From the IMG/VR virus record IMGVR_UViG_3300020472_000119, positions 1 to 29,519 of that record: a stretch of 29,519 nucleotides of DNA. One strand, 5' to 3'. The notes beneath the pieces were generated by a model. That model worked only from the letters and a program-made list of their open reading frames with translations. It did not search any database and was not told where the DNA came from. This DNA comes from a virus. This document shows, piece after piece, positions 1-28,731 of the stretch. How positions within the stretch are numbered: the first letter of the stretch is position 1; every line of letters begins with the position of its first letter. A program made the position numbers and the translations under genes.

Positions 1-232
1 CTACATCTGCTTGACTTGGTAAACCACCTAGACCTGGTATAGGCAGTGGTCCTTGATGATACTCTTGTTCTTTAAGTGCTTCTTCTGCTGCCTCTACCTT
101 TGCTGAGTTTGCAACAGGTGAAATAATTACATTGCCTTCGGGACACTCTATTACGAATGGTGTTCCTCTAGCAGCAAGTTTCAATGTAAAAGCAATATTC
201 TCTATTGCTTCATCATAAGTTAATCGGTTCAT
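1..232 (-). CDS. Hypothetical protein, C-terminus cut by window edge
   Basis: An open frame from an ATG at 232 runs off the left edge, so only the first 77 residues are seen. The ATG overlaps the stop of the upstream 82-aa gene as ATGA, which fixes this start and indicates translational coupling. The visible part begins MNRLTYDEAI, is rich in Ala and Glu, and has a Pro/Gly-rich stretch near residues 63-71 (GPLPIPGLGG). No signal peptide, membrane segment or catalytic motif is visible. It is the third gene of a small operon read through the leader at 630-845. I do not recognise the family. Confidence 0.7.
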   Translation of the reverse strand, partial: MNRLTYDEAIENIAFTLKLAARGTPFVIECPEGNVIISPVANSAKVEAAEEALKEQEYHQGPLPIPGLGGLPSQADV

Positions 233-20705: not shown

Positions 20706-20733
20706 ATAAAAAGGGTGGGGAAAAACCCCACCC
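20706..20733 (-). terminator. Rho-independent terminator after the beta-barrel gene
   Basis: An 8-bp GC-rich stem, GGGTGGGG with CCCCACCC, loop of five (TTTTT on the minus strand; 20713-20733), followed by five Ts (20708-20712). It ends transcription of the 126-aa gene. It immediately follows the -10 of the glutaredoxin promoter. Confidence 0.8.
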
Positions 20734-20762
20734 AGTATATATTATCTGTTGACTTGAGTCAA
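20734..20762 (-). promoter_or_regulatory. Sigma70-type promoter overlapping a terminator
   Basis: Minus-strand TTGACT (20757-20762), 17-bp spacer, TATACT (20734-20739). The -35 begins directly after the TGA of the 126-aa gene. Initiation near 20727 falls at the end of the 5' arm of the terminator, so transcripts started here would lack most of the stem. Confidence 0.65.
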
Positions 20763-21143
20763 TCAGAATGTGAACTTACCACCGAGCTTAGCAGCCCAGT
20801 CAACGATGCCGTCGCCACTTGAATCTTCATTAGTGATTCCAGCGAGTTCGCCGTAAACACCGAAGCTTTCTGTAGCAGCGATAGAAACTCCTACCTTTCC
20901 AGATAGTTCAGTTGTTGTATCCTCACCTTCTGTAGCAACGATAGCAGGGCCACCTTGAATGTAGTATCCAAACTTACCTTCTCCACCTTCGTAACCCACG
21001 TGAGCGTCGGTTGTTGCTGTAGAGTAGTCTCCATCAGGATATGAGACGTTTGCTTCTACGTTCACGTAAGGACCAGCAAAAGCGGCTCCAGCGAGTAGAA
21101 AAGGGCTTGCTGCGATAGCAGCGATTGTTGATTTAATAGACAT
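20763..21143 (-). CDS. Secreted beta-barrel-like protein, porin/OMP type
   Basis: A 126-aa protein with a signal peptide (residues 1-23, ending AGAAFA). The mature part is beta-strand-like with alternating patterns, many Gly/Tyr/Thr/Glu, acidic loops, and a C-terminal phenylalanine after LGGKFTF, the classic outer-membrane insertion signal. At about 100 mature residues it could form a small barrel of about eight strands (YVNVEANVSYP, KFGYYIQGGPAIV, ELSGKVGVSIA, FGVYGELAGI, WAAKLGGKFTF). It has its own promoters at 21274-21308, a long hairpin-containing leader and a terminator. Its function is unknown; modifying the host outer membrane is possible. Confidence 0.65.
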   Translation of the reverse strand: MSIKSTIAAIAASPFLLAGAAFAGPYVNVEANVSYPDGDYSTATTDAHVGYEGGEGKFGYYIQGGPAIVATEGEDTTTELSGKVGVSIAATESFGVYGELAGITNEDSSGDGIVDWAAKLGGKFTF

Positions 21144-21189
21144 TTTAGTAGTTAGTGTCTCGCAAGCATAAAAAAAGCCTGCGGATGAT

Positions 21190-21210
21190 AAGACCCTCGA
21201 CTAGGGTCTT
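21190..21210 (-). repeat. Strong hairpin in the leader of the beta-barrel gene
   Basis: Perfect 8-bp inverted repeat AAGACCCT / AGGGTCTT with a 5-nt loop, about 50 nt upstream of the ATG at 21143. No T-run follows directly on the minus strand, so it is more likely a leader structure than a terminator. Confidence 0.6.
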
Positions 21211-21253
21211 GTATTCTTTCCACAGGGTTACGATAATTTCGAGTCCTGTCTAA

Positions 21254-21270
21254 CGTAACATAACGTTACG
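21254..21270 (-). repeat. Inverted repeat CGTAAC / GTTACG in leader
   Basis: A 6-bp perfect stem with a 5-nt loop just downstream of the promoter pair at 21274-21308. It would form at the extreme 5' end of the leader, or could be a protein-binding dyad. Confidence 0.5.
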
Positions 21271-21273
21271 AGA

Positions 21274-21308
21274 TATTTATAATAGTTTAGGGGTACGGTT
21301 TTAGTCAA
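21274..21308 (-). promoter_or_regulatory. Overlapping sigma70 and late promoter
   Basis: Minus-strand TTGACT (21303-21308), 18-bp spacer, TATTAT (21279-21284). The T4-type late motif TATAAATA (21274-21281) overlaps the -10. This would allow expression of the beta-barrel gene both early and late. The leader to 21143 is about 125 nt. Confidence 0.55.
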
Positions 21309-28677: not shown

Positions 28678-28705
28678 AAAAAAAAGGGACTGTAGCAGTC
28701 CCTTT
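28678..28705 (-). terminator. Rho-independent terminator after psbA
   Basis: A perfect stem AAAGGGACTG / CAGTCCCTTT with a 3-nt loop (28683-28705), continuing into a run of Ts (28678-28685 on the complement). The hairpin lies about 22 bp past the psbA stop. Confidence 0.85.
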
Positions 28706-28731
28706 ATATATTGAGTTTGAAGTGGTGTCAA
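28703..28731 (-). promoter_or_regulatory. Sigma70 promoter fused to the psbA stop and terminator
   Basis: Minus-strand TTGACA (28726-28731, full -35 consensus) contains the psbA TGA. A 17-bp spacer leads to TATAAA (28703-28708). Initiation near 28696 falls at the tip of the terminator hairpin. Confidence 0.65.

Follow-up and report, generated by a model that had tools for sequence, protein, structure and literature searches.

How can the transcript of one gene be ended and that of the next be begun within the few bases between two phage genes? This question is raised by an intergenic stretch in the window (the whole stretch of DNA analysed here, a 29.5-kb virus record), which belongs to a marine T4-like cyanophage whose closest named matches are Kyanoviridae phages of Prochlorococcus and Synechococcus. 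All genes around the stretch are carried by the minus strand, where 71 bases separate a Phage_OMP beta-barrel gene (PF24653, 20763-21143), whose transcript would be terminated, from the glutaredoxin gene nrdC (PF00462, 20443-20691), whose transcription would be restarted. Read along the minus strand, the stop codon of the OMP gene (TGA, 20765-20763) is followed directly by TTGACT, 17 nt, TATACT, GGGTGGGGTTTTTCCCCACCC, TTTTT, 16 bases and the ATG of the glutaredoxin gene.

Two signals can be recognized in this order. TTGACT (20757-20762) and TATACT (20734-20739), separated by a 17-nt spacer (20740-20756), match the promoter consensus at 10 of 12 positions and fit the 16-18-nt spacing of sigma70-type promoters; the -35 assignment is based on the sequence, a consensus scan and conservation in homologues. 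The -10 hexamer abuts, with zero gap, the hairpin GGGTGGGG-TTTTT-CCCCACCC (20713-20733), which is composed of a 5' arm (20733-20726), a loop (20725-20721) and a 3' arm (20720-20713) and is followed by a TTTTT tract (20708-20712). With 8 pairs, 7 of them G-C, a folding energy of -17.9 kcal/mol (z -3.3) and T5, the hairpin fits the GC-rich stem and T-tract of an intrinsic terminator, and the 3' ends of upstream transcripts are predicted to fall within the T-tract or up to 2 nt past it. Placed at the conventional distance of 7 nt from the -10 hexamer, the start would be position 20727 (predicted range 20726-20728), which is base 7 of the 8 in the 5' arm. The preliminary description, which had TTGACT-17-TATACT running without a gap into an 8-bp terminator and the start near the end of the 5' arm, was therefore exact on both points.

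We propose that this stretch is probably a compact terminate-and-restart element. A polymerase coming from the OMP gene would transcribe the whole hairpin and, as expected from standard intrinsic-terminator anatomy, stop at the T5 tract, while a host sigma70-type polymerase would start a new RNA at about 20727 from TTGACT-17-TATACT. According to the computed folding, that RNA would lack nearly all of the 5' arm and be unable to form the hairpin, so that it may continue into the glutaredoxin gene. Compared with the full hairpin, a transcript from 20727 retains only -0.9 kcal/mol and one from 20726 retains 0, whereas transcripts from 20728 and 20729 retain -4.6 and -7.5 kcal/mol, respectively. 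Escape therefore depends on the exact start, since initiation 1-2 nt early would leave a stem of 3-4 bp. The earlier idea that upstream RNAs stop and new RNAs escape is supported by this loss of folding energy and by the conserved architecture described below, with the qualification that it hinges on the exact start. Its companion, that one short sequence both insulates and restarts, would hold for the downstream gene but not for the promoter itself. Because a polymerase from upstream terminates only after it has passed both hexamers and the start, upstream activity should occlude the restart promoter, which predicts mutual exclusion between upstream transcription and restart.

We examined whether the single site in the window exceeds chance expectation, using simple consensus rules to call terminators and promoters. 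Terminator-like sites were in excess (21 versus 8.5 in shuffles), and promoter-like sites occurred at the level of the shuffles (43 versus 39.4 and 28 versus 37.7), so a lone promoter match in the window proves little. The significance of the promoter-hairpin fusion rests on relatives and other cyanophages rather than on the window alone.

From IMG/VR, 80 loci with glutaredoxin genes and 80 with OMP genes were taken, and their junctions were read as a set of homologues. Eight distinct close homologues carry a -35 of TTGACT, TTGACA or TTGCAA, a spacer of 17 or 18 nt, a -10 that is TATACT in all eight and a stem with zero gap; the T run is invariant in homologues. Mean column conservation among them is 0.92 in the -35 versus 0.60 in the ten adjoining spacer columns. 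The stem pairs, which were counted by script from hand-set arms as some stem columns of the MAFFT alignment were out of register, show compensating changes from T-A to C-G at pair 4, from G-C to A-T at pairs 5, 6 and 7, and from G-C to C-G at pair 8. Since the two hexamers and their spacing are conserved and the stem pairs change in a compensating manner, selection appears to maintain the promoter as well as the hairpin, as judged from sequence comparison. TTGACT was also considered as a mere part of a TTGACTCAAGTCAA inverted repeat; this was rejected, as homologues retain TTGAC and not the repeat. Distant homologues (the L033, L030 and L014 groups) retain the stem, but their -35 is poor or their -10 altered.

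A survey was then made of every strong intergenic terminator in 12 cyanophage genomes or large contigs, with 4 further cyanophage genomes as a held-out set, giving 172 non-redundant terminators in total. Promoters were taken as sigma70-like if they had 10 or more of 12 matches and a spacing of 16-18, and were scored by their position relative to the stem. In the first 12 genomes or contigs they already showed a peak at zero gap. Ten promoters had a gap of 0, with 1, 1 and 2 at gaps 1-3 and 8 spread over the 31 positions of gaps 4-34. Dinucleotide shuffles gave 0.43 promoters (maximum 3 in 200) at gaps 0-3, where the survey has 14; these 14 are not fully independent, since they include at least two homologous pairs (the window and contig G004; Syn9 and S-PM2). 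In the held-out genomes alone, 2 of 41 terminators had such a promoter versus 0.10 in shuffles (maximum 2 in 200). Abutting sigma70-like promoters were absent from the 88 terminators of other phages, namely 38 in mixed IMG/VR phages and 50 in T4 and KVP40, the latter being a weaker control than it looks because the -35 of T4 early promoters is GTTTAC-like (PMC1524935). When the transcript begins at the predicted start, the median hairpin energy of the 14 survey elements changes from -12.0 to -1.1 kcal/mol, and folding showed that promoters moved 6 nt or more upstream of the stem would produce transcripts carrying the complete hairpin. Direct abutment of the -10 and the stem is thus what would allow self-escape, and the gaps observed in the survey are distributed as self-escape predicts.

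The whole of IMG/VR was scanned for a module pattern of TTGAC, 16-18 spacing, TATA[AC]T, GGG...CCC and T5. The pattern matched 97 contigs, whereas otherwise identical patterns in which 10-12 or 22-24 nt separate the hexamers matched 0 and 0 contigs. Among 80 of the 97 contigs that were examined, 77 show a full stem, although the pattern itself demanded just three G-C pairs, and these 80 contigs contain 44 distinct element sequences that differ strongly from one another. A G run after the -10 may aid promoter opening, and we considered whether TATACT followed by GGG is kept solely for this. This was rejected, because the stem is not brought by GGG alone: terminator stems were found at 3 of 82 TTGAC-TATACT-GGG sites in mixed IMG/VR phages and at 0 of 80 TTGACA-16..18-TATAAT-GGG sites in bacterial genomes.

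These data bear on two other explanations of the junction. TTGACT-17-TATACT might be a chance match in AT-rich DNA before a real terminator, and glutaredoxin expression might depend on read-through or on a different promoter. The shuffle-level frequency of promoter-like sites in the window and the loss of the -35 in some distant homologues agree with this, but the zero-gap peak relative to shuffles, its recurrence in the held-out genomes, the absence of matches in the wrong-spacing scans and the retention of the -35 in close homologues make it unlikely. Alternatively, the hairpin might serve mainly as a 3'-end stabilizer, or as an attenuator of its own promoter through initiation a few nucleotides earlier. 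Intrinsic terminators often protect 3' ends as well, and a transcript from 20729 would retain -7.5 kcal/mol; however, a GC stem with a T-tract is a canonical terminator, and attenuation requires initiation upstream of the stem, whereas few promoters were found at gaps 4-34 (8 in 31 positions). We regard this second explanation as quite improbable.

It is also conceivable that gp55, the late sigma factor of the phage, uses the AT-rich box abutting the stem instead of the host sigma70-type polymerase doing so, in which case restart would occur only late. At the OMP junctions of L083, L090, L093, L111, L121, L144 and L150, a late-like TAAATA abuts the stem in place of the sigma70-type promoter; in these and other lineages, CTAAATA or AATAAATA lies beside the stem at this same junction (8 of 135 versus 1.06 in shuffles, the junctions being largely homologous). 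The cyanophage late motif is NATAAATA (PMC2984593), which these AT-rich boxes resemble. The window element, in contrast, has TATATACT rather than NATAAATA, as well as a spaced and conserved -35, an element absent from T4 late promoters (PMC2988020). A T4-type late promoter, that is, a TATAAATA/NATAAATA box with no -35, was accordingly rejected for the window element. In addition, late-like abutment was not significant over the general terminator set (5 versus 1.33 in shuffles). Use by gp55 is, on this evidence, very improbable, and the terminate-and-restart element with a sigma70-type promoter is the reading that we prefer.

Composite promoter-terminators are already known. Promoter-early stem-loops (PeSLs) are described, in the passages of PMC4503421 that cite Arbiol 2010 and Comeau 2014, as composite promoter-terminator motifs of T4-like phages, and the same passages give the PeSL density in the ORFanage region of S-PM2 as much lower than in other T4-like phages. 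Like PeSLs, the window element occupies a short intergenic region in a T4-like phage genome and joins a stem-loop to a strong sigma70-like promoter. Serving as a recombination point in modular gene shuffling is a further attribute of PeSLs; the present elements differ strongly in sequence. However, the RB49 and phi1 copies examined here have the stem between the -35 and the -10 and no T-tract (TTGACAGGGGATCGGTGATCCCCTATAAT), an arrangement that is not found in the window element, where the stem follows the -10, a T-tract is present and the predicted start lies inside the 5' arm. At one RB49 promoter (15781) the -10 is directly followed by a stem, but a T-tract is absent. What appears to be new is therefore that transcription would begin within the 5' arm of a terminator with a T-tract, a feature deduced from sequence and set apart from PeSLs by the RB49 and phi1 copies; descriptions of PeSLs may include such a geometry. 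T4 likewise terminates and then restarts for the next gene, but there the GTTTAC-type early promoter begins well past the T-tract and the two signals do not overlap. Apart from this comparison, we observed that the hairpins of some RB49 and phi1 promoters contain GATC and lie exactly in the -35/-10 spacer, without a T-tract (AY343333, 117357-117413 and 121684-121740; EF437941, 123203-123260).

Another kind of fused unit, here called type B, was found in the same cyanophage genomes. In these units the hairpin loop or the 3' arm contains the -35 TTGACA, and the T-tract is followed directly by the -10, often TATGCTATAAT, as in GAGGGTGC-TTGACA-CCCTC-TTTTTTTATGC-TATAAT. They form a peak at 16-18 nt comprising 22 of the 172 cyanophage terminators and include sites L387:1830, L342:5704 and L339:12759. 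Type-B units are also a terminator fused to a sigma70-like promoter, but their start is downstream of the whole terminator, so that escape would involve no truncation of the stem. When all intergenic promoters were screened for stems, 7 of 306 were counted as type A, but the coding mask used was crude and lost known cases, so that no conclusion is based on this count.

The genes that precede such elements include the following. The element lies downstream of psbA in P-SSM7 and L605, of psbD in Syn9, S-PM2 and L669, of pstS (phrog_5385) in L603, of a class-I fructose-bisphosphate aldolase gene in L629, and of OMP genes in the window, Syn1 and the homologues of the window junction. A second candidate was found in the window itself (28678-28731, minus strand): TTGACA (28731-28726), which overlaps the psbA stop codon, is followed by 17 nt, TATAAA (28708-28703), the stem GGGACTG-CTA-CAGTCCC (28702-28686) and T8 (28685-28678), directly after which comes the ATG of the next gene. 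The evidence for this element is weaker, its -10 being TATAAA without the last T; contig G004 (locus L384) carries a comparable, psbA-end-like element.

For us, the balance is even as to whether cyanophages in general use a start inside a terminator, under a strict zero-gap rule, as a regulatory device that marks where auxiliary metabolic genes (psbA, psbD, pstS and aldolase) and OMP genes end, with a late-type box having replaced the sigma70-type promoter at the OMP junction while the abutment stays the same. If so, host-like metabolic genes would be cut off from phage operons by fewer than 60 bases, and a sequence rule that combines zero gap with a start in the 5' arm would allow so short a stretch both to end and to begin a transcript. 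This offers a candidate answer to how photosynthesis and phosphate genes are separated from their neighbours in dense cyanophage genomes, and the simplicity of the design suggests that it could be reused as a compact genetic part.

Two further observations concern the region upstream of the OMP gene in the window. On the minus strand, TTGACT-18-TATTAT (21274-21308) overlaps an exact TATAAATA late motif (21281-21274), making a double early/late promoter possible at this site. The OMP leader that follows (21140-21280, minus strand) contains several hairpins in a row before the start codon, for example at 21212-21188.
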